A DNA stretch of 44,356 nt. Source: Cellulosimicrobium composti (GTDB taxonomy: Bacteria > Actinomycetota > Actinomycetes > Actinomycetales > Cellulomonadaceae). Where the stretch lies: contig NZ_WMKA01000011.1 of the NCBI RefSeq assembly GCF_009711085.1, positions 61,048-105,403 on the forward strand. The letters are read 5' to 3'. Below are positions 8,112 through 17,498 of this stretch, one piece after another. The notes under the pieces were generated by a model, which was not told the origin of the DNA, ran no database searches, and was given only the letters and a program-made list of their open reading frames with translations. The position numbers were made by a program, and so were the translations under genes. Each line of letters opens with the position of its first letter. Positions within the stretch are counted from its first letter, which is position 1.

Positions 8112-9536
8112 ATGACCACCCACACCCCCGAGCAGCCCGACGACGCGGCCCTCGAGCGGCTGCGCGCCGCCGACCCCGCGGCGGGCCTCGACCCGGACAC
8201 CGAGGCCCTGGAGGCCGCTGTCCGCACGCGCGTCCCCGAGGCGTTCGCCGGCGCGACGGCGACCCCCGGCGCACCGGCGTCCCCGCCCGCCGACACCGGC
8301 GTACCCTCTGGTGCACCGGTCGACGAGCTCGCCGAGCGCCGCGCGCGCCGCCGTCGCCGCGCGCCGCTCCAGGTCGCCGCCGCCGTCGCGGGCGTGCTCG
8401 TCGTCGGTGCCGGCGGGTACGCGCTCGGCGCCGGCGCCGTCGGAGCCTCGCCCGCGGGGGACACGTCGGAGCTCACGGCGCGCGCGCCCATCCAGCTCGG
8501 CACCGCGGACGCGCCCGCCGCGGCGGACGGTGCCGGGGCGGAGAGCTTCGCGGGTGACGCACGGTCGGCGGCCGACGTCGCCTACCCCGGGTACTGGGGC
8601 GGCCGTACCGTGTTCCACCAGGACGGGCTCCCCACCGAGGGTGCGAGCGCGTCGGCCTGGGCCTACGACGCGGCCGGCGTGTTCGCGCCCGAGACGCTGC
8701 TCCGCGTCGCGGACGCCCTCGGCGTCGACGGCGAGGTGCGCGAGGACTACGGGTCGCTCTCCGCCGGGTCGGCCGACTGGACCGGGCCCACGGTCTCGCT
8801 CCAGCCCGACGGCCTCGCGAGCGTCAGCTTCAACGACCCGACCAAGGACCCGTGGGGCTGCGTCGTCGTGTCGCCCGCGCCGGCGGACGGCGACGGCGGG
8901 GGCGAGAGCGTCGAGCCCGGCGTGTGCGAGGAGGCCGACCACGGCGCCCCGCCGAGCGGCGCGGACGCCGTCGAGCAGCTCCGCGACGTGCTCGCCACGC
9001 TCGGCCTCGACCCCGCCGGGTACGAGGTCGTCGCCGACGAGCAGGCCCCCGACGTCGAGGCTCCGCGCGCCACCACCGTCACCGCGCACGAGGTCGTCGA
9101 CGGGCAGCGCACCGGCACGCAGTGGAGCGCGACCTTCTCCGGCGCCGGCCTCGCCTCGCTCTACGGGGCCCTCGCCCCGCGCGTCGAGATCGGCACCTAC
9201 GACGTCGTGAGCCCCGCCGAGGCCGTCGAGCGGCTCGGCGACCCGCGGTTCGGCGGCGGGGGCATGATCGCGTGGGCGCGCGAGAGCACGCTCGAGCAGA
9301 TGGCCGTCGAGCCCGAGGAGCCCACCGTGCCGCCCACGCTCGGCGAGGGCGCACGCTTCGCGTGGCCCGTCACCGACGTGACGATCACCGACGCGCGGCT
9401 CGGCCTCGCCGTCCAGTACCAGCCCGACGGCGCGGCGGTGCTGCTGCCCGCGTACGAGCTGTCGGACGCTGAGGGCAACGCGTGGTCCGTCGTCGCGGTC
9501 GTCGACGAGCAGCTCGACTTCGCGCCTGCCGGCTGA
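8112..9536 (+). CDS. Membrane-anchored protein encoded with the ECF sigma factor, possible anti-sigma factor
   Basis: 474 residues, with GGAGGG 4 nt before ATG 8112. The N-terminal 80 residues are charged and probably cytoplasmic (ALERLRAADPAAGLDPDTEALEAAVRTRV). The basic run ERRARRRRR then precedes one transmembrane helix at about 85-108. The remaining 360 residues would lie outside. The position behind a sigma gene and the topology fit a regulatory partner, but I see no zinc-binding HxxxCxxC motif. The opening LRAADPA resembles the short N-terminal tails of other sigma-linked actinobacterial membrane proteins. The external part has no domain I recognise, though it contains two Cys in the middle that could be bridged. 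The anti-sigma role is inference. Confidence 0.75.
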   Translation: MTTHTPEQPDDAALERLRAADPAAGLDPDTEALEAAVRTRVPEAFAGATATPGAPASPPADTGVPSGAPVDELAERRARRRRRAPLQVAAAVAGVLVVGAGGYALGAGAVGASPAGDTSELTARAPIQLGTADAPAAADGAGAESFAGDARSAADVAYPGYWGGRTVFHQDGLPTEGASASAWAYDAAGVFAPETLLRVADALGVDGEVREDYGSLSAGSADWTGPTVSLQPDGLASVSFNDPTKDPWGCVVVSPAPADGDGGGESVEPGVCEEADHGAPPSGADAVEQLRDVLATLGLDPAGYEVVADEQAPDVEAPRATTVTAHEVVDGQRTGTQWSATFSGAGLASLYGALAPRVEIGTYDVVSPAEAVERLGDPRFGGGGMIAWARESTLEQMAVEPEEPTVPPTLGEGARFAWPVTDVTITDARLGLAVQYQPDGAAVLLPAYELSDAEGNAWSVVAVVDEQLDFAPAG

Positions 9537-9680
9537 GCGTCACGCGGTTCGTCGGCCGTCGTCGGGGAACGAGCGGTCGCCTTCCGGCAGCGGTCCGGGA
9601 CGACGACGCCGGGTCTTCCATCCGCCCGCTCGTCCCTCGCGGGCTCCCGCCAGACCCACCACGACCCGGCGTCGTCGTCC

Positions 9681-9960
9681 CTCCCCGCCGCCTCGTCGTC
9701 GCGTCGCCTGTGTCGGGGCGTGGGTGTCGGCGTCCTCGTGGTCGTCGTGCCTCCCCGCCGCCTCGTCGTCGCGTCGCCTGTGTCGGGGCGTGGGTGTCGG
9801 CGTCCTCGTGGTCGTCGTGCCTCCCCGCCGCCTCGTCGTCGCGTCGCCTGTGTCGGGGCGTGGGTGTCGGCGTCCTCGTGGTCGTCGTGCCTCCCCGCCG
9901 CCTCGTCGTCGCGTCGCCTGTGTCGGGGCGTGGGTGTCGGCGTCCCCGTGGTCGTCCGTG
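9681..9960. repeat. Four tandem copies of a 70-bp repeat
   Basis: Copies start at 9681, 9751, 9821 and 9891 with CTCCCCGCCGCCTCGTCGTC. The first three appear identical or nearly so apart from the segment at their edges. The fourth has a T-to-C change in its GTCCTCG part and diverges at its end (GTCGTCCGTG). Since 70 is not a multiple of three, a reading frame would shift at each copy, which argues against coding. No spacers separate the copies, so this is a minisatellite and not a CRISPR array. Confidence 0.95.
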
Positions 9961-10051
9961 CCTGCACGCCGCGTGTCGTGGGGCCGCCTCGGCAGTAGCG
10001 CGAGCCACGTTCGGGCGCGGACGTAGGCTGATCCGGGCGTGCGCTGGTCTT

Positions 10052-10127: not shown

Positions 10128-10262
10128 CGCAGCAGACCGGGCGCCACCGGGTCGGAGAGCGTTCACATGCCCTCTCCCGGGTGCGCGGTCCGGCGGTGGC
10201 AGGGAGGCCATCGTCGTCGTATCGGCGGCGCCCCGGCGTCCGCCGTCGGAACGGGAGCAACG

Positions 10263-11501
10263 ATGCACCACTTCGCCTCTGACGGCTCGTCAGACCGTCC
10301 GGCCCCCGACGCGCGCACGGGGCTCTGGCTCGTCGGCGCCCGCGGCTCGGTCGCGACCACCGCGACGCTCGGGCTCGCCGCCATCGCCGACGGGCGTGCG
10401 GCGCCGACGGGGTGCGTCACGGTGTCCGAGCCGTTCGCGTCCGCACCGCTCCCGGCGTTCGGCGACCTCGTCGTGGGGGGCCACGACATCTCCGACGTCT
10501 CGATGGTCAAGCGCGCCGAGCTGCTCGTCGAGGCCGGGATGATCGCGCCGCGCCTGCTCACCACCGCGCACGCCGCGCTCGAGCGCGCGGACGCCGAGGT
10601 GCGCCCGGGCTACACCGCGCACCCGGCCGAGGGGTCGCCGCGCGAGTCGCAGCAGGCGGCCGCGGAGCGGCTCGCGCAGGACATCGTGGACTTCCGCGAG
10701 CGCCACGGTCTCGCGCGCGTCGTCGTCGTGGACCTCGTCTCGACGGAGCCGCTGCCCGAGCCCGCGCCGGAGCTCTCCGACCTCGGCCTCCTGCGGGCGG
10801 CGCTCGCGGACCCGGACCGCGCCGTGCTCCCGCCGAGCTCCGTGACGGCGTACGCCGCGCTCCTCGCGGGCGCCCCGTTCGCCGAGTTCACGCCGTCCGC
10901 GAGCATGCACGTGCCGGCGCTCCTCGAGCTCGCCGCGGAGCGCGGCGTGCCCGTCGCGGGCCAGGACGGCAAGACGGGCCAGACGTGGCTGCGCACGATC
11001 CTGGCTCCCGCGTTCGCGGCCCGCGGCCTGCGCGTGCTGTCGTGGGCGGGCGCGAACCTGCTCGGCGGCGGCGACGGCGCGACCCTCGCCGACCCGGAGG
11101 CCGTGCAGAGCAAGCTCGCGTCGAAGTCGCGCGGGCTGCAGGACCTCACGGGCAGCGACGTCACGCCCCTGCACATCGACAACGTGCCGGACCTCGGCGA
11201 CATCAAGGTCGCGTGGGACCACGTGCACGTCGAGGGCTTCCTCGGCTCGCGCCTCACGCTCCAGACGACGTGGTCGGCCTACGACTCGATGCTCGCCGCC
11301 CCGCTCGTGCTCGACCTCGCCCGCCTCCTCGCGCTCGCCGACGCCGCAGGCTGCGCGGGCCCGGTCGCGGAGCTCGGGTTCTTCTTCAAGGACCCGTGGG
11401 GGAGCGACGTGCACGACTTCGCCGCGCAGACCGTCGCGCTCGCCGACTGGGTCCGCGAGGCGAGCGCCCGCGTCGCGTCCGCCGCGACCGAGCGGCCATG
11501 A
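10263..11501 (+). CDS. Inositol-3-phosphate-synthase family protein of the ebo-type operon
   Basis: 412 residues. ATG 10263 follows GGGAG by 5 nt; an ATG at 10167 would add 32 residues unlike the family. The protein has the NAD-binding glycine motif near the N-terminus (GARGSVATT, 25-33). It also has the synthase-family motifs GQDGKTGQT, a GANLLGGGDG segment matching the usual N-N-D-G region, SKSRGL, and a long conserved stretch from HIDNVPDLGD to SAYDSMLAAPLV. The family isomerises glucose 6-phosphate to a cyclitol phosphate by an NAD-dependent oxidation, aldol closure and reduction. It is first in a seven-gene operon and overlaps the next gene by ATGA. The exact product is unknown; a specialised cyclitol phosphate for this pathway is inference. 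Confidence 0.88.
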   Translation: MHHFASDGSSDRPAPDARTGLWLVGARGSVATTATLGLAAIADGRAAPTGCVTVSEPFASAPLPAFGDLVVGGHDISDVSMVKRAELLVEAGMIAPRLLTTAHAALERADAEVRPGYTAHPAEGSPRESQQAAAERLAQDIVDFRERHGLARVVVVDLVSTEPLPEPAPELSDLGLLRAALADPDRAVLPPSSVTAYAALLAGAPFAEFTPSASMHVPALLELAAERGVPVAGQDGKTGQTWLRTILAPAFAARGLRVLSWAGANLLGGGDGATLADPEAVQSKLASKSRGLQDLTGSDVTPLHIDNVPDLGDIKVAWDHVHVEGFLGSRLTLQTTWSAYDSMLAAPLVLDLARLLALADAAGCAGPVAELGFFFKDPWGSDVHDFAAQTVALADWVREASARVASAATERP

Positions 11502-12418
11502 CGGGCACGCTCCGCGACCACCTGGACCTCGTCCGCGCTCCCGCGGTCCTCTCGGTGGTCGGTGACACCCTTGCGGGCGCCGCCGCCGCCGGTCACCGGG
11601 TCACGCCGCGCCGTGCGCTGCTGCCGTTGGCGTCGGCGTGCCTCTACGCGGGCGGCATGGCGCTCAACGACTACGCGGACCGGGACCTCGACGCGGTGGA
11701 GCGGCCCGAGCGGCCGATCCCGTCGGGGCGCGTCACCGAGCAGCGCGCGCTCCAGGTCGCGGTCGGGCTCACGGCCGCCGGGGTGGGGCTCGCCGCGGCG
11801 GGCGGGGGCGCGCGCGCCCTCGCGGTGGCCGTGCCGCTCGCCGCGAGCGTGTGGACGTACGACACGGTCGCCAAGGAGCACGCGGCCGGTCCCGTCGTCA
11901 TGGCGGCGTGCCGCGGGCTCGACGTGCTCATGGGAGCCGGCGTCGGCCGGCTGCGGGCCGCGCTGCCCGCGGCGGCGGGGCTCGCGGTGCACACCGCGGG
12001 CGTGACGCTCGTGTCGCGCGGCGAGGTGCACGGCACGACGTCGTCGCTCGCCACGGGCGTCGCCGCCGCGACCGCGGTGGGTGGCGCCGTCGTCGGCGCG
12101 GGAGCGCTGCGCCGCGGGCGCGCGAGCGCCGGAGGCGGCCCGGGCGTCGCGACGGCGGTGGCGGGCCTCGCCGCCGCGGCGGCGTACGTCGCGACGGCCC
12201 TGCCCCGGCAGGTCGACGCCGCGATCACGCCGTCCGCGGGCAACGCGTTCGCGGCCACGAAGGCCGGGATCCGGGCGATGGTCCCGCTGCAGGCGGCGTG
12301 GGCCGCGCGCGGCGGCAGCCTGGTGTCGGTCGCGGCGCTCGCGGGTGTCGAGGTCGCGGGGCGGCTGCTGCGCCGTGCCGGCCGCCGTCCGGGGCGGGCC
12401 GAGATGAGCGAGACGTGA
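11498..12418 (+). CDS. eboC: UbiA-like prenyltransferase EboC (SCO3242-like)
   Basis: A 306-residue integral membrane protein of the UbiA superfamily, with about eight hydrophobic helices rich in Ala, Gly and Val. The prenyl-diphosphate/Mg-binding motif NDYADRDLD lies at residues 57-65 and is followed by the typical ERPERPIPSG. The second Asp-rich motif of classical UbiA enzymes is reduced (YDTVAKE). The family transfers a polyprenyl group to an acceptor in the membrane. In the ebo system the acceptor is not established. In this context a cyclitol or sugar made by the flanking enzymes is a reasonable guess. The start overlaps the preceding stop by four bases and the end overlaps the next gene, so the genes are translationally coupled. 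Confidence 0.88.
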   Translation: MTGTLRDHLDLVRAPAVLSVVGDTLAGAAAAGHRVTPRRALLPLASACLYAGGMALNDYADRDLDAVERPERPIPSGRVTEQRALQVAVGLTAAGVGLAAAGGGARALAVAVPLAASVWTYDTVAKEHAAGPVVMAACRGLDVLMGAGVGRLRAALPAAAGLAVHTAGVTLVSRGEVHGTTSSLATGVAAATAVGGAVVGAGALRRGRASAGGGPGVATAVAGLAAAAAYVATALPRQVDAAITPSAGNAFAATKAGIRAMVPLQAAWAARGGSLVSVAALAGVEVAGRLLRRAGRRPGRAEMSET

Positions 12419-13311
12419 GCGCGGGGGCCGGCGGCGCGATGCCGTTCACGCTCGGGTACGGCACCAACGGCTTCACGGACCACCCGCTCGACGTCGCGCT
12501 CGACGTGCTCGACCACGAGGGCTACGGCGCGGTCGCGCTCACGCTCGGCTTCCCCCACCTCGACCCGTTCGTCGAGGGGTGGGGCGAGCACGTGGACGCG
12601 CTGCGCGCACGCCTCGGGACGCTGCACGGCGGCGCCGGGATGCGGGTCGTCGTCGAGACGGGCACCCGGTTCCTCCTCGACCCGTACCGCAAGCACCGTC
12701 CGACCCTCGTGGACGCGGAGGCGGACGCGCGGATGCGGTTCCTGCGGCGCGCGATCGAGATCGCCGCGGCGCTCGACGCGGAGTGCGTCTCGTTCTTCTC
12801 GGGCGTGCTGCCCGAGGGCACGTCGCCCGAAGAGGGCTGGGCGCTCCTGCGCGACCGCCTGCCCGAGCTCGTCGAGGAGGCCCGCGCGCTCGGCGTCCGG
12901 ATCTCGCTGGAGCCCGAGCCGGGGATGCTCGTCGAGACGGTCGGCGACGCGCTGCGCCTGCGCGACGAGCTCGGCGGTCCTGCCGAGCTCGGGATCACGG
13001 TCGACGTGGGGCACTGCCTCGTCGTCGAGCCGGACGGCGTGGTCGGCGCGCTGCGCGCCGCGGCGCCGTACCTCGCGAACGTGCAGCTCGACGACATGCC
13101 GCGCACGCATCACGAGCACCGCCCGTTCGGCGAGGGCGGGATCGACCTGCCGCTCGTGCTCGCGACGCTCGCCGACGTCGGGTACACGGGCGTCGCGGCC
13201 GTCGAGCTGCCCCGCCACTCCTACGACGCCCCGGGGCTCGCGCACCGCAGCATGACAGCGCTGCAGCGCGCCTGGGACGACCGCCCCCACCACCCCCAGG
13301 AGGTGCCATGA
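12415..13311 (+). CDS. TIM-barrel sugar-phosphate isomerase/epimerase-like protein
   Basis: 298 residues from GTG 12415, which overlaps the eboC stop as GTGA; ATG 12439 would give 290. This is a xylose-isomerase-like (AP endonuclease 2 family) TIM barrel. The expected metal ligands are spread along the chain: Glu in SLEPEPG, Asp/His in TVDVGHC, Asp in QLDDM followed by a His-rich loop (RTHHEH), and Glu near the end (VELPRHS). Such enzymes isomerise, epimerise or dehydrate sugars and inositols (compare IolE and IolI). Beside an inositol-phosphate-synthase homologue, a cyclitol or keto-sugar substrate is plausible. It belongs to the same broad fold as EboE, two genes further on, but is shorter and clearly distinct. 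Confidence 0.82.
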   Translation: MSAGAGGAMPFTLGYGTNGFTDHPLDVALDVLDHEGYGAVALTLGFPHLDPFVEGWGEHVDALRARLGTLHGGAGMRVVVETGTRFLLDPYRKHRPTLVDAEADARMRFLRRAIEIAAALDAECVSFFSGVLPEGTSPEEGWALLRDRLPELVEEARALGVRISLEPEPGMLVETVGDALRLRDELGGPAELGITVDVGHCLVVEPDGVVGALRAAAPYLANVQLDDMPRTHHEHRPFGEGGIDLPLVLATLADVGYTGVAAVELPRHSYDAPGLAHRSMTALQRAWDDRPHHPQEVP

Positions 13312-14003
13312 CCGAGACCACCCGCCCCGACGCCCGCCCGGCGGACGGGGCCACGAGCGACGGCGAGCGCTGGCTCGCCGAGGCGCGTGCCGCCGTCGGG
13401 CAGGACCCGGCGTCCGTGTCGCGCGCGTTCGCGCTCGCCGGCCGCAAGGTCGGGCGCGCGCCGCTGCGCCCGGACGTCGACCCTGCCGGGATCGTCCACG
13501 GGACGGTCGACGACGCGGCGCGGGCCGCACTCGTCGTCGCGCTCGCCGACGCCCTGGGCGCCGACGGCGACGCGGCGCTCGGCGCGCGTCTCGCGGACCT
13601 CTACCAGCACGGCGACACCGCCGAGCGGCGCGGCGTGCTGCGCGGCCTCGACGCGCTCGCCGAGCGCGGCTCGCTCGCGGGCGAGGGGGCGACGTCCGTC
13701 GTGGCGGTCGGGCGCGACCTCGCGGCCGACGCGCTGCGCACCAACGACCAGAGCCTCGTCGCGGCGGCCGTCGGGCCGTTCGCGGCCGCGCACCTCGACC
13801 AGCACGCGTGGCGTCACGCGGTGCTCAAGCTCGTGTTCATGGGCGTGAGCCTCGACGCCGTCGCCGGGCTCGACGACCGCGCGGACGACGAGCTCGCGCG
13901 CATGGCGCGCGACTTCGCCGCGGAGCGCCGCGCCGCGGGCCGCGTCGTGCCCGACGACGTCGCCCGCCTCGCCCCTGACGTCACCACCGGGAGGACCGCC
14001 TGA
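13308..14003 (+). CDS. eboA: EboA domain protein
   Basis: A 231-residue soluble, alpha-helical protein. A perfect AGGAGG at 13298-13303 precedes ATG 13308, which overlaps the previous stop (ATGA). The diagnostic part is at about 145-190: DALRTNDQSLVAAAVGPFAA, then HLDQHAWRHAVLKLVFMGVSL. This matches the EboA pattern of an R.N-type helix followed by W...VLK.LF.G..L. EboA has no known enzymatic activity and defines the ebo cluster across cyanobacteria, proteobacteria, Bacteroidetes and actinobacteria. In those systems it is thought to act with the neighbouring proteins in making or moving a metabolite. The strong ribosome-binding site suggests it is made in good amount. Confidence 0.88.
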   Translation: MTETTRPDARPADGATSDGERWLAEARAAVGQDPASVSRAFALAGRKVGRAPLRPDVDPAGIVHGTVDDAARAALVVALADALGADGDAALGARLADLYQHGDTAERRGVLRGLDALAERGSLAGEGATSVVAVGRDLAADALRTNDQSLVAAAVGPFAAAHLDQHAWRHAVLKLVFMGVSLDAVAGLDDRADDELARMARDFAAERRAAGRVVPDDVARLAPDVTTGRTA

Positions 14004-14881
14004 TGCGCATCTTCGACCCCCACATCCACATGACCAGTCGGACCACGGACGACTACGAGGCGCTGTACGCCGCGGGCGTGCGCGCGCTCGTCGAGCCGGC
14101 GTTCTGGCTCGGCCAGCCGCGCACGAACGTGGGGTCGTTCCTCGACTACTTCGACTCCCTGCTGGGCTGGGAGCGGTTCCGGGCGGCGCAGTTCGGCATC
14201 CGGCACCACGCGACGATCGCGCTCAACCCGAAGGAGGCGAACGACGCGCGCTGCCGCGAGGTGCTCGACGAGATCCCGCGCTACCTGCTCAAGGACGGCG
14301 TCGTCGCGGTCGGCGAGGTCGGGTACGACTCGATGACGCCCGAGGAGGACGAGGTGTTCGCGCGCCAGCTCCAGATGGCGCGCGACGTGGACCTCCCGGT
14401 GCTCGTGCACACCCCGCACCGCGACAAGCTCGCCGGGACGCGCCGCACGCTCGACGTCGTGCGCGAGTCCGGGGTGCCGTCCGAGCACGTGCTCGTCGAC
14501 CACCTCAACGAGACGAACGTGACGCTCGTGCTCGACGCCGGGGCGTGGGCCGGGTTCTCCATCTACCCGGACACGAAGATGGACGAGGACCGCATGGTCG
14601 CGATCCTCCAGGAGCACGGCACGGACCGGATGATCGTCAACTCCGCGGCGGACTGGGGCCGCTCCGACCCGCTCAAGACCCTCAAGACGGGGCGCGCGAT
14701 GCTCGCGGCCGGGTTCACCGACGACGACGTGGACAAGGTGCTGTGGCGCAACCCCGTCGAGTTCTACGGCCAGTCCGGCAACCTCGTGCTCGACCCGGTG
14801 CCGGGGTTCGTCGAGGGCGACCTGCCGACGCCGGGGGTCGAGTTCGAGGGCTCCTCCGTGCTGCGCGGCGTGCGCGCGTAG
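14003..14881 (+). CDS. eboB: EboB-type TatD-like metal-dependent hydrolase
   Basis: 292 residues; ATG shares its A with the eboA stop (TGATG), and GGGAGGA lies 7 nt upstream. The amidohydrolase-like TIM barrel of the TatD family is shown by the first metal pair DPHIHM (His7, His9), Glu in VGEVGYD, His in VLVHTPHR, His in LVDHLNE and the final Asp in NSAADWG. All the expected metal ligands are therefore present and the enzyme should be active. TatD proteins hydrolyse phosphodiester or ester bonds; the EboB substrate is unknown. Its place between eboA and eboE matches the ebo cluster of other bacteria. Confidence 0.88.
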   Translation: MRIFDPHIHMTSRTTDDYEALYAAGVRALVEPAFWLGQPRTNVGSFLDYFDSLLGWERFRAAQFGIRHHATIALNPKEANDARCREVLDEIPRYLLKDGVVAVGEVGYDSMTPEEDEVFARQLQMARDVDLPVLVHTPHRDKLAGTRRTLDVVRESGVPSEHVLVDHLNETNVTLVLDAGAWAGFSIYPDTKMDEDRMVAILQEHGTDRMIVNSAADWGRSDPLKTLKTGRAMLAAGFTDDDVDKVLWRNPVEFYGQSGNLVLDPVPGFVEGDLPTPGVEFEGSSVLRGVRA

Positions 14882-14898
14882 GCGGGCGGGCTCCCATC

Positions 14899-16083
14899 GT
14901 GCTGCTCTCGTACTGCACCAACGTCCACCCGGCCGAGGACCTCGACGGGGTCGTCGACCAGCTCGTCACGTACGCGGGCCCCGTCCGCGAGGCGGCGGGA
15001 CTCGACGTCCTCGGCGTGGGGCTGTGGATGCCCGCGACGCTCGCGCACCGGCTCGCCGGGTCGCCCGCGGACCGGGCGTGGCTGCGCGCCGTGCTCGACG
15101 AGCGGGGCCTGCAGGTCCACACGCTCAACGCGTTCCCCTACGGCGGGTTCCACGCGGACGTCGTCAAGCTCGACGTGTACACGCCCACGTGGGCGCAGCC
15201 CGAGCGGCTCGCGTACACGCTCGAGTGCGCCGAGGTCCTGGCCGACCTCCTGCCCGACGGCGTCGCGGGCTCGATCTCGACCCTCCCGCTCGCGTGGCGC
15301 GAGCCGTGGTCGCCCGCGGAGGACGAGGCCGCGACGCGCGCGTTCGCCGCGCTCGGCGCGGGGCTGCGGGACCTGCGCGAGCGCACGGGGAAGGTCGTGC
15401 GGGTCGCGGTCGAGCCGGAGCCCGGCTGCGTGCTCGACACGGTCGACGACGTCGTGGGCTGGCTCGCGGCGCGCACCGGGCCGGACGTGCCGGACGAGCG
15501 GCGGATCGACCCCGAGCACGTGGGCGTGTGCCTCGACACGTGCCACCTCGCCGTGTCCTTCGCGGACCGCCGCGCGGGGACGGCCGCGACGGTGCGCCGC
15601 ATCACCGACGCGGGCCTGCGCGTCGTCAAGGTCCAGGCGTCGGCGGCGCTGCACGTCGAGGACCCGCTCGACCCGGCCGCGCGCGCCGCCGTCGGCGCGT
15701 TCGCCGAGAAGCGCTACATCCACCAGGTGCGCGAGCTCACGGCGTCGGGCGACCCGCTGCCCGCGGACGACCTGCCGGACGCGCTCGGCGGCGCGCTGCC
15801 CGCGGCGGGGCCGTGGCGCGTGCACTTCCACGTGCCGCTGCACCACGAGCCCGCCGCGCCGCTCGCGGCGACGACCGACGTGCTGCGCGACGCGGTCGAC
15901 GCCGTCCTCGCGGCACCGCACGGCGACGAGGCGCACCTCGACGTCGAGACGTACACGTGGGCCGTGCTGCCCGAGGGTGCCGCGACCGACTCGCTCGTCG
16001 CCGGCATCGCGGCGGAGCTGCGCTGGGCGACGACCCACCTGCCCACCGGGCACGAGAGCCAGACCACCAGGAGGACCGCATGA
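14899..16083 (+). CDS. eboE: EboE, metabolite-traffic TIM-barrel protein
   Basis: 394 residues from GTG 14899 (MLLSYCTNVHPAEDL), the only start that gives the typical EboE N-terminus. It lies 17 nt after the eboB stop, which makes this the only junction in the operon without overlap. It is a xylose-isomerase-like barrel with LNAFPYGGFH, an EPEPGC loop, CLDTCHLAVSF, and conserved later segments (VKVQASAALH, HFHVPLHHEP, LDVETYTW). Family proteins are named from work in Nostoc punctiforme, where the ebo genes were linked to moving a scytonemin precursor to the periplasm. No scytonemin genes are seen here, so the cargo or substrate must differ. Confidence 0.9.
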   Translation: MLLSYCTNVHPAEDLDGVVDQLVTYAGPVREAAGLDVLGVGLWMPATLAHRLAGSPADRAWLRAVLDERGLQVHTLNAFPYGGFHADVVKLDVYTPTWAQPERLAYTLECAEVLADLLPDGVAGSISTLPLAWREPWSPAEDEAATRAFAALGAGLRDLRERTGKVVRVAVEPEPGCVLDTVDDVVGWLAARTGPDVPDERRIDPEHVGVCLDTCHLAVSFADRRAGTAATVRRITDAGLRVVKVQASAALHVEDPLDPAARAAVGAFAEKRYIHQVRELTASGDPLPADDLPDALGGALPAAGPWRVHFHVPLHHEPAAPLAATTDVLRDAVDAVLAAPHGDEAHLDVETYTWAVLPEGAATDSLVAGIAAELRWATTHLPTGHESQTTRRTA

Positions 16084-17498
16084 AGCCCGTGCTGCTGCTC
16101 GACGTCGTCGGGCTCACGTCGACCGCGCTCGCGCACATGCCGCGCCTGCGCCAGCTCGCCGCGAGCGGCTGGCAGGCCGAGCTCGCGACGGTGCTGCCCG
16201 CCGTGACGTGCAGCGTCCAGTCGACGATGCTCACGGGGCTCAGCCCCGCCGAGCACGGGATCGTCGGCAACGGGTGGTACTTCCGCGAGCTCGGCGACGT
16301 CTACCTGTGGCGTCAGCACAACCGGCTCGTCGAGGGCGAGAAGCTGTGGGAGACCGCGCGCCGCGCGCGGCGCGAGTACTCGTCGGCGAACGTCTGCTGG
16401 TGGTACGCGATGGGCATGACGACGGACGTCACGGTCACGCCGCGCCCGATCTACCACGCGGACGGGCGCAAGTCGCCGGACGCGTACGTGCGCCCGCCGG
16501 CGCTCCACGACGACCTCGTCGGCCGGTTCGGCGAGTTCCCGCTGTTCACGTACTGGGGCCCGACGGCGGACATCAGCTCGTCGCGCTGGATCGTCGACGC
16601 GACGCGCCACGTGCTGCGCACGCACGCGCCCGACCTGACGATGGCGTACGTCCCGCACCTCGACTACGACCTGCAGCGGTTCGGCCCGAACGCGCCGCAG
16701 GCGGACGCGGCCGCGGCCGAGCTCGACGCGACCCTCGCGCCGCTGCTCGACGACGCGGCGAACCAGGGCGTGACCGTCCTCGTGGTCTCGGAGTACGGCA
16801 TCGCGGACGTCGACCGGCCCGTGCACCTCAACCGCATCCTGCGCCGCGAGGGCCTGCTCGAGGTCTACGTGCAGGACGGCAAGGAGCAGCTCGACCCGTG
16901 GACGTCGCGCGCGTTCGCCGTGGCGGACCACCAGGTCGCGCACGTCTACCTGGGGGACCAGCAGGACCCGGCGCTGCAGCGGCGCGTCGCGGACCTCCTG
17001 CGCGGCGTCCCGGGCGTGGACGAGGTGCTCGACCGCGAGGCGCAGGCCCGCTACGGGCTCGACCACGAGCGGTCGGGCGACCTCGTCGTCGTGGCGGAGC
17101 CGGGGGCGTGGTTCACGTACTACTTCTGGCTCGACGACGACCGCGCGCCCGAGTACGCGCGCGGCGTCGACATCCACCGCAAGCCGGGCTACGACCCCGC
17201 CGAGCTGTTCTTCGACCCGGCGGACCGGCTCGCCAAGGCGAAGGCCGGCCTCAACCTCGTGAAGAAGAAGGTGGGCCTGCGGTACGCGATGAGCACGGTG
17301 CCGCTCGACGCGTCGTACGTGAAGGGGTCGCACGGGCGGCTGCCCGACTCCGCGGCCGACACCCCGCTCGTGCTGTGCTCCGACGCGGAGGTGCCCGCGT
17401 CGGTCGCGGGCGTCGTGGAGAGCGGCGCGGGTCAGGTCCCGGCGGCGGCGGTCAAGGGCCTCGTGCTGGAGCTGCAGGGGCTCGGCGCCCGGGTCTGA
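16080..17498 (+). CDS. eboF: EboF-type nucleotide pyrophosphatase/phosphodiesterase family protein
   Basis: 472 residues. AGGAGG lies 5 nt before ATG 16080, which overlaps the eboE stop. It has the alkaline-phosphatase fold of the NPP family: Asp8 in LLLDVVG, the nucleophile Thr43 in PAVTCSVQSTM, TGLSPAEHGIVGNGW, PHLDYDLQRFG, and GSHG near the C-terminus. The family motif SDHG is SEYG here, replacing a metal-binding Asp-His pair. No signal peptide is visible, so it acts in the cytoplasm. It should cleave a phosphodiester or phosphoanhydride, or bind such a ligand if the change abolishes one metal site. It is the last gene of the operon and is followed by a strong hairpin. Confidence 0.85.
   Translation: MKPVLLLDVVGLTSTALAHMPRLRQLAASGWQAELATVLPAVTCSVQSTMLTGLSPAEHGIVGNGWYFRELGDVYLWRQHNRLVEGEKLWETARRARREYSSANVCWWYAMGMTTDVTVTPRPIYHADGRKSPDAYVRPPALHDDLVGRFGEFPLFTYWGPTADISSSRWIVDATRHVLRTHAPDLTMAYVPHLDYDLQRFGPNAPQADAAAAELDATLAPLLDDAANQGVTVLVVSEYGIADVDRPVHLNRILRREGLLEVYVQDGKEQLDPWTSRAFAVADHQVAHVYLGDQQDPALQRRVADLLRGVPGVDEVLDREAQARYGLDHERSGDLVVVAEPGAWFTYYFWLDDDRAPEYARGVDIHRKPGYDPAELFFDPADRLAKAKAGLNLVKKKVGLRYAMSTVPLDASYVKGSHGRLPDSAADTPLVLCSDAEVPASVAGVVESGAGQVPAAAVKGLVLELQGLGARV

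Follow-up and report, generated by a model that had tools for sequence, protein, structure and literature searches.

The classical ebo operon, eboABCDEF, was described by Yurchenko et al. 2016 (PMC5133447), and the available part of that paper already proposes a cyclitol-isoprenoid for EboD-type operons and cites the BE-40644 pathway, in which a cyclitol is formed and subsequently farnesylated. A Nostoc ebo cluster is treated in PMC6282210, the available text of which cites the EDB cluster of Pseudomonas fluorescens. In the accessible portion of PMC9235831, a flavobacterial EboC is reported to farnesylate quinolines in vitro, and an ebo region of Saccharomonospora is drawn. Within the calcium-dependent antibiotic (CDA) region of Streptomyces coelicolor, SCO3243 is given as a myo-inositol phosphate synthase in PMC3610822, where SCO3242 and SCO3243 are entered, as far as the available text goes, as CDA-cluster genes only. 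A search for published accounts of an ebo operon with an inositol-phosphate-synthase homologue (INO1) returned none among the matches listed, subscription papers, preprints and supplements lying outside its scope. The operon reported here belongs to a known kind but represents a variant for which no prior description was found in the literature searched.

The window, a stretch of 44,356 nucleotides from Cellulosimicrobium composti, contains one tight co-directional operon on the + strand (10263-17498) in the order INO1-EboC-ISO-EboA-EboB-EboE-EboF (Table 1), where ISO denotes a putative sugar isomerase. The seven-gene layout with six tight junctions claimed in the preliminary description was borne out when ORF starts and ends were re-read: in gene order, the junctions are overlaps of 4, 4, 4 and 1 nt, a 17-nt gap and an overlap of 4 nt, the second 4-nt overlap (EboC/isomerase) holding only with the isomerase GTG start at 12415 and not with the optional ATG at 12439. 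INO1 also has an in-frame upstream ATG at 10167; in the form that starts at 10263, homology sets in near residue 21. Of 16 further actinobacterial loci compared, 14 show the same gene order, which argues against a chance arrangement.

Table 1. Genes of the C. composti operon, with coordinates in the window and supporting profile matches
Gene product	Coordinates	Strand	Profile match
INO1-family cyclase, archaeal-type myo-inositol-phosphate synthase homologue, EboD stand-in	10263..11501	+	PF07994 177 bits, PF01658 102 bits
EboC-type UbiA prenyltransferase (predicted), SCO3242 family	11498..12418	+	NF045897 322.8 bits (cut-off 260)
ISO, xylose-isomerase-like TIM barrel, second half of INO1 module	12415..13311	+	PF01261 126 bits
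EboA, all-helical protein	13308..14003	+	NF035938 151.5 bits (cut-off 50)
EboB, TatD-like metallo-hydrolase	14003..14881	+	TatD PF01026 53 bits
EboE	14899..16083 (GTG start)	+	NF035939 424.8 bits (cut-off 250)
EboF, PF01663 phosphodiesterase-fold protein, changed metal site	16080..17498	+	PF01663 215 bits

With an EboE above its family cut-off, an EboA, a clustered EboC-type prenyltransferase and homologues of EboB and EboF, the locus is an ebo operon. It shares with the classical eboABCDEF the clustered, co-directional genes for these five components and the logic of a cyclitol synthase combined with a UbiA prenyltransferase. It is not of the classical type, which is defined by the sugar phosphate cyclase EboD: the C. 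composti operon lacks EboD, carries INO1 and an isomerase, has an EboC of the SCO3242 family and follows a different gene order.

INO1 matches the myo-inositol-phosphate synthase (MIPS) of Archaeoglobus fulgidus (1u1i) over its full length (E 7e-59), and residues K274, K278, K306, K367, N255, D225, D261 and D332, whose Lys, Asn and Asp side chains we take to have the catalytic roles of MIPS, are kept in 28 of 28 aligned rows. Its PF07994 and PF01658 domains and these residues place the predicted protein in the myo-inositol-phosphate synthase family. It resembles the A. fulgidus enzyme in this homology and in the catalytic residues examined, but has other genomic partners, and the INO1 proteins of actinobacterial ebo loci form a well-supported clade of their own (98/99). 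An ordinary mycothiol enzyme was ruled out (TIGR03450, 27.7 bits against a cut-off of 638), and a second, canonical INO1 is encoded on contig 118 of the same genome, so that a further plain INO1 would be redundant unless dedicated to the operon. Relatives of INO1 in the PDB include 6k96, a five-membered-cyclitol-phosphate synthase.

The preliminary description had proposed that INO1 takes the place of EboD, and the genome surveys support this. No EboD was found in the C. composti genome, where a single PF01761 (DHQ_synthase) match, an AroB-like gene, scored 157 bits on an EboD profile that gives 514-642 bits for 66 of 68 EboD loci, 16 of which had trained it. Nor was an EboD found in 346 actinobacterial genomes, the best score among the matches listed being 207 bits with at most five candidates per genome scored. 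EboE exceeded its cut-off in 15 of these 346 genomes, and the same 15 hold an ebo-type INO1 scoring no less than 528 bits (8 of the 15 genes were rows of the INO1 profile, 7 were not); under the same limit of five candidates per genome, none of the remaining 331 does, the next score among the matches listed being 359 bits. The co-occurrence has a Fisher p of 1.5e-26, a value that ignores kinship, related genomes in the surveys not being independent of one another.

Across 96 ebo loci with at least two core genes, a count that leaves out L040 (on the same contig as L151), L045, L129-L134 and L188, 67 carry EboD, 21 carry INO1, 8 carry neither and none carries both. Four of the 21 INO1 loci were obtained through an INO1 search. 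Eighty loci were the top 80 among the matches, at least 584 in number, to a single Gemmatirosa EboE, so this set is not a random sample. In the eight loci with neither gene, no cyclase lies nearby, and some of them end at contig ends. Among 26 genomes with other-kind EboE loci, INO1 exceeded 450 bits in only a Terrabacter, which has a complete INO1-type operon of its own, and one Gemmatimonadetes MAG. The isomerase, earlier regarded as an extra gene, proved to be part of the swap: every one of the 21 INO1-type loci has ISO, and thus two genes replace EboD. One genome has a second ebo locus (L023) with EboC and ISO and without INO1. A Ketogulonicigenium isomerase, an annotation-based seed of the ISO profile, lies far from the rest on an end branch of about 10, so that the EboD-with-ISO entry it creates in the 96-locus count holds no true ISO.

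INO1-type loci also occur in Gemmatimonadota, with other gene orders, and on haloarchaeal plasmids, again with other gene orders and without EboA or a canonical EboE, haloarchaea having been sampled through plasmid records only. An apparent locus with both cyclases in the Gemmatimonadetes MAG G346 was rejected: one contig ends with ISO-INO1-EboC and another begins with EboC followed by EboD-EboE-EboF, and the DNA of the two EboC fragments does not match over the roughly 50 residues that they have in common, which indicates a mixed bin or two separate loci. INO1 is also paired beside YcaO-like genes with an ISO from the same family; among the matches listed by a literature search on YcaO with INO1, none described an INO1-type ebo operon. 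A Streptomyces INO1-type locus lies near genes for large adenylation-domain proteins. In summary, the comparison shows that INO1 and ISO replace EboD beside shared ebo partners in Actinobacteria, Gemmatimonadota and haloarchaeal plasmids (the last without EboA and canonical EboE), and that the swap is systematic.

The C. composti EboC scored 149.7 bits against the classical EboC model NF035940, under its cut-off of 250; the SCO3242-type actinobacterial EboC-like enzymes are a separate named NCBI family (NF045897, SCO3242_trans), and EboC thus belongs to the same prenyltransferase family as SCO3242 of the CDA region. In a tree, it is placed among the EboC sequences of other ebo loci. Residues N57, D58, D61, D65, Y121, K126 and R139 are invariant in 42 aligned rows, and the AlphaFold model (pLDDT 86) has as its nearest structures the archaeal lipid-ether synthases 6m31 and 7bpu (DGGGP synthases), which appear to share its fold and UbiA Asp motifs, although identity is only 16-17 percent. 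The Asp-rich motif, the Tyr/Lys/Arg residues and the modelled multi-helix membrane fold assign EboC to the UbiA superfamily. In the tree, the EboC of a Gemmatirosa INO1-type locus has as its sister a Gemmatimonadetes EboC of the EboD type (SH-aLRT 100), which suggests that one EboC lineage pairs with either cyclase; the EboD-type sister is a partial sequence from a MAG that also holds an INO1-type contig and may therefore be a mixed bin. Type-specific EboC residues were considered as possible markers of an acceptor site, an idea that was set aside: among the discriminating columns, 302-305 lie in the C-terminal tail, and the others are 16, 60 and 165.

In ISO, residues E166, E168, D197, H200, H235 and E264 are conserved (17 rows), and locus L035 has an ISO-EboA fusion. 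EboA scored 62.9 bits against the narrower EboA family NF035937, under the cut-off of 320; its structure model has a pLDDT of 90, and a fold search against the PDB returned weak helical-repeat matches but none at E <= 0.001. The nearest solved relative of EboB is 3guw (AF_1765; E 5e-29). Both EboB and EboF have conserved residues common to INO1-type and EboD-type loci, those of EboB being H7, H9, E105, H136, H167 and D217. In EboF, T43 and D195 are kept in all rows and match the site of PhnA (1ei6), and Q199, E238 and Y239 stand at its H, D and H positions, with frequencies of 89%, 100% and 100% in 18 INO1-type rows and 100%, 98% and 100% in 59 EboD-type rows. The two-zinc site of PhnA/NPP uses the ligands D,T,D,H,D,H,H, and EboF does not have the full set. 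A phosphodiesterase role for EboF is accordingly doubtful, three metal ligands of this site being replaced across the family.

The reading that we find, on balance, probable from these sequences is that the operon is an INO1-type ebo variant whose INO1 and ISO make a cyclitol that EboC prenylates in the membrane, giving a cyclitol-prenyl lipid. INO1 would take glucose 6-phosphate, or an aldose phosphate close to it, through inositol-phosphate-synthase chemistry (oxidation with NAD, intramolecular aldol closure and reduction), and ISO would either make the substrate of INO1 or reshape the resulting cyclitol. EboC would then use a prenyl diphosphate to attach a prenyl chain to one of the hydroxyls of the cyclitol, or of its phosphate, a step modelled on archaeal DGGGP synthase, whose prenyl acceptor is a phosphorylated polyol. 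The prenylated cyclitol would be modified or released by EboB, EboE and EboF, with EboA as a helical partner, and the lipid could be the product, a carrier or a membrane component. For the classical type, the corresponding cyclitol would be a C7 compound made by EboD and put to the same use. The MIPS product retains its phosphate and lacks a ketone, in contrast to the products of the EboD superfamily, so the two operon types would offer EboC different acceptors. The loss of phosphate by EboD-superfamily products is stated in the available part of PMC5133447. The BE-40644 pathway likewise combines a cyclitol synthase with a UbiA-family prenyltransferase; it differs in using a C7 cyclitol synthase (EEVS), and the likeness is drawn at the level of pathway description. 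A point against a cyclitol acceptor is the flavobacterial EboC result with quinolines, which fits an aromatic one. The canonical second INO1 of the strain, the difference in acceptors between the two types, the eight loci lacking both cyclases and the INO1-less locus L023 likewise count against the cyclitol-prenyl reading.

Another reading, which we regard as unlikely, retains the cyclitol and changes its identity: ISO would turn a ketose phosphate, such as sedoheptulose 7-phosphate, into an unusual aldose phosphate whose ring INO1 closes, so that the two operon types would arrive at similar products, either C7 or rare C6 compounds. The constant presence of ISO would be explained, given that glucose 6-phosphate needs no isomerase, and the pairing of the two genes beside YcaO-like genes and the different product of the INO1 relative 6k96 point the same way; the MIPS catalytic residues examined, however, are unchanged and fit plain glucose 6-phosphate chemistry. 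It also seems improbable that the main task of the ebo genes is membrane transport of a separate metabolite, with the INO1 operon as a general export helper for cargo made elsewhere and any cyclitol-prenyl lipid as only a carrier. Export is suggested by the link of ebo genes to periplasmic transport of a scytonemin precursor in Nostoc punctiforme (available text of PMC6282210), by the NCBI name of EboE ('metabolite traffic' protein) and by the adenylation-domain protein genes near the Streptomyces locus, but none of the seven genes encodes a transporter, and a transporter has no need of several enzyme-like proteins in which catalytic-looking residues are conserved. This explanation overlaps with the cyclitol-prenyl lipid reading, since the lipid could itself be the carrier. 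Finally, that INO1 is a passenger adding inositol supply unrelated to the ebo pathway is very improbable and largely refuted by the genome survey: INO1 homologues are common in actinobacteria (the profile matched at some level in 193 of 346 genomes), so a spare copy could land anywhere, but its exact co-occurrence with EboE, its recurrence in three groups with differing gene orders and its well-supported clade speak against it.

Returning to the cyclitol-prenyl lipid, a wider and more tentative proposal, which we hold possible and by no means probable, is that INO1 and ISO are a portable two-gene module, swapped for EboD in archaea as well as bacteria and employed beside YcaO genes too, that in ebo operons feeds a membrane prenyltransferase to give undescribed cyclitol-prenyl ether lipid carriers in two domains of life. 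INO1 and EboD belong to unrelated families that have in common the closure of a ring from a sugar phosphate; their occurrence beside the same prenyltransferase is comparative evidence for a cyclitol on the ebo pathway. The cyclase swap thereby narrows the candidate products of a widespread, poorly understood pathway. The INO1-type operon makes the question of the ebo product testable in an easier system, since the chemistry of INO1 is well established and a culturable actinobacterium could be fed labelled glucose or inositol.

Sequence reading of the window bore out the seven-gene layout and the junctions claimed in the preliminary description, with all genes running in the same direction and an EboC/ISO overlap that depends on ISO starting at GTG 12415. 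Family searches assigned the genes to an INO1-family cyclase, a SCO3242-family (EboC-like) UbiA prenyltransferase, a xylose-isomerase-like barrel (ISO), an EboA-domain protein, a TatD-like EboB, EboE and a PF01663-fold EboF. Upstream of the operon, an open frame ends at position 9536 and is followed by a 726-bp stretch, which contains a 70-bp tandem repeat in 4.4 nearly identical copies. The frame downstream lies on the opposite strand and gave only a sub-threshold Pfam match.

An EboD gene, encoding the sugar phosphate cyclase usual in ebo operons, was sought elsewhere in the same genome (4.3 Mb, 150 contigs, 99.99% complete), since a co-regulated copy there would have spoken against replacement by INO1. 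The single PF01761 match scored 157 bits on the EboD profile and is probably AroB; with a profile trained on 16 of the 68 EboD loci scored, 66 reached 514–642 bits and the two low ones 247.5 and 301 bits. The genome carries two INO1 genes, one in the ebo operon and the other on contig 118. A mycothiol-type assignment of the ebo INO1 was ruled out (27.7 bits vs a cut-off of 638 on TIGR03450).

The replacement of EboD by INO1 is real and systematic. EboE was matched in 16 of 346 actinobacterial genomes and passed the cut-off in 15; exactly those 15 scored at least 528 bits on the ebo-type INO1 profile (12 rows, 8 of them drawn from these genomes), and the rest of the 346 scored at most 359. In the sixteenth genome, G279, EboE is broken into pieces and ebo-type INO1 is missing. 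With up to five candidates scored per genome in both profile surveys, no EboD was found in the 346 genomes (maximum 207 bits). Pooling 108 loci, we found at least two of EboB, EboC, EboE and EboF in 96, of which 67 carried EboD, 21 INO1, 8 neither and none both, in agreement with the mutual exclusion that the preliminary description had proposed to check. Four of the 21 INO1 loci (L046, L127, L128 and L144) were retrieved by searching with INO1, a bias that inflates the INO1 count but cannot hide an EboD. Among the remaining 12 loci, 10 had neither cyclase, one had EboD and one INO1. The 80 named loci from the EboE alignment search, the best 80 of at least 584 matches and only two of them actinobacterial, included 64 with EboD and none with INO1. 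Seven of 26 genomes behind such loci matched the INO1 profile at any level, and two reached 450 bits: a Gemmatimonadetes metagenome-assembled genome (MAG) and a Terrabacter genome, which has the same INO1-type operon at L144. The EboE locus that pointed to the latter, L087, shows no other ebo gene in its flanks. EboE-like genes also stood alone in the fetched flanks, some of them short, at L070, L078, L083, L086, L091, L111, L116 and L124, and are perhaps a paralogue with another role.

Comparison of 9–20 kb stretches around 16 other actinobacterial loci revealed the order INO1-EboC-ISO-EboA-EboB-EboE-EboF in 14. The exceptions are a broken locus (L037) and the second locus of one genome (L023), where EboC and ISO are present and INO1 is absent; a frame judged by eye to be FAD-oxidoreductase-like lies upstream of this EboC. 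The INO1-type operon also occurs on a Streptomyces plasmid (L046), where genes encoding a phosphopantetheinyl transferase and large adenylation-domain proteins lie close by.

ISO is part of the swap. All 21 INO1-type loci contain it, against 1 of 67 EboD-type loci; it thus goes with INO1 instead of being the extra isomerase first described. Ketogulonicigenium was rejected as an EboD-type locus with a true ISO: its isomerase, one of the sequences from which the ISO profile was built, is not close kin. At L035, EboA and ISO form one fused protein; Yurchenko et al. mention, as data not shown, a xylose-isomerase-like domain fused to actinobacterial EboA proteins (PMC5133447). INO1, an ISO-like gene, Gfo/Idh/MocA and YcaO-like genes are clustered in Roseomonas, together with a metallo-beta-lactamase-fold gene, and in Hymenobacter; on an unannotated Methylobacterium plasmid, INO1, Gfo and ISO were located together by profile only. 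The isomerases of these clusters share 41–49% identity with ebo ISO in the pairs listed, and a quick tree places them among the ebo proteins with moderate support (SH-aLRT 84).

Outside Actinobacteria, Gemmatirosa and a second Gemmatimonadota genome, with EboE in two pieces, share the arrangement EboG-EboB-EboF-EboC-INO1-ISO with a divergent EboE. EboE was matched in 3 of 200 sampled Gemmatimonadota genomes, two over the cut-off; the third is a MAG with one EboD-type and one INO1-type contig, which stem either from separate loci or from a mixed bin. Plasmids of Halobaculum, Halocatena and Natronococcus (the last by annotation only) encode INO1, EboF-like, EboB-like and UbiA proteins and two isomerase-like proteins. 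In the two clusters scanned, EboA had no match and no canonical EboE was found (isomerases at 36–42 bits on its profile); the UbiA protein fell below both cut-offs (EboC, 178 vs 250; SCO3242, 170 vs 260). A homologue from Halomarina is instead surrounded by glycosyltransferases.

Coordinates of the operon, neighbouring features and related clusters
Feature	Sequence	Positions	Remark
Seven-gene ebo operon	window	10263–17498	+ strand
Tandem repeat	window	9671–9979	
Second ebo locus without INO1, with the FAD-oxidoreductase-like frame	L023	12704–15348	
Streptomyces plasmid stretch	L046	1–20027	
Haloarchaeal INO1-type ebo-like cluster, plasmid	L127	1106–7656	
Haloarchaeal INO1-type ebo-like cluster, plasmid	L128	1238–7539	
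Haloarchaeal INO1-type ebo-like cluster, plasmid	L188	2936–9609	annotation only
INO1, ISO-like, Gfo/Idh/MocA cluster (Alphaproteobacteria and Hymenobacter set)	L129	5566–12827	
INO1, ISO-like, Gfo/Idh/MocA cluster (same set)	L130	5977–13152	YcaO-like annotated
INO1, ISO-like, Gfo/Idh/MocA cluster (same set)	L131	5842–12468	YcaO-like annotated

In the INO1 tree, the actinobacterial ebo proteins formed one clade (support 98/99, 16 of 28 rows), with Gemmatirosa and haloarchaeal INO1 outside it; deeper placement is unsure because canonical INO1, Arthrobacter and A. fulgidus have long branches. For EboC (75 rows, quick tree method), mapping the INO1 label required three changes, at least two by starred branches, gain not being told from loss in such counts. 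An EboD-type Gemmatimonadetes EboC, partial and from the MAG with both contig types, was sister to that of Gemmatirosa (SH-aLRT 100). The EboB tree likewise gave three changes, with a long-branch warning.

Among the matches covered in the open-access literature searched, none described an ebo operon of the INO1 type as a variant. Published work covers ebo in Nostoc and the link to Pseudomonas EDB (PMC6282210), SCO3242/SCO3243 as CDA-cluster genes (PMC3610822), in vitro farnesylation of quinoline acids by a flavobacterial EboC (PMC9235831) and a cyclitol-isoprenoid idea for EboD and EboC, proposed in 2016 (PMC5133447).

INO1 aligned over its full length with A. fulgidus myo-inositol-phosphate synthase (E 7e-59), and its structure matches included PDB chains altered at A. 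fulgidus positions 278, 367 and 255. Residues K274, K278, K306, K367, D225, N255, D261 and D332 (A. fulgidus numbering), which we take to be catalytic, are identical in 28 of 28 INO1 rows; INO1 is therefore predicted very likely to retain the ring-closing chemistry. EboC kept its Asp-motif residues invariant in 42 rows, and its model (pLDDT 86) was nearest to DGGGP synthase 6m31 (E 3e-7, TM 0.66/0.71), an archaeal lipid-ether enzyme that prenylates a phosphorylated polyol. ISO and EboE have conserved Glu, Asp and His side chains as possible metal ligands, and EboB retains the TatD-like His, Asp and Glu. EboF (16080–17498 in the window) keeps T43 and D195, with Q199, E238 and Y239 replacing the metal ligands H, D and H of PhnA (same Pfam family, 77 rows); Q199 occurs in 89% of 18 INO1-type and 100% of 59 EboD-type rows, and E238 and Y239 in 98–100%. 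Given these metal-site changes, EboF is unlikely to be a conventional two-zinc phosphodiesterase. The confident EboA model (pLDDT 90) is all-helical, with no confident match in a fold search and with E106, R144, K174, R191, E206 and R207 as invariant charged residues (32 rows). We infer the INO1 substrate, the role of ISO, the EboC acceptor and all later steps; on the best reading, a plausible mechanism, both operon types would yield a cyclitol that EboC would then prenylate.
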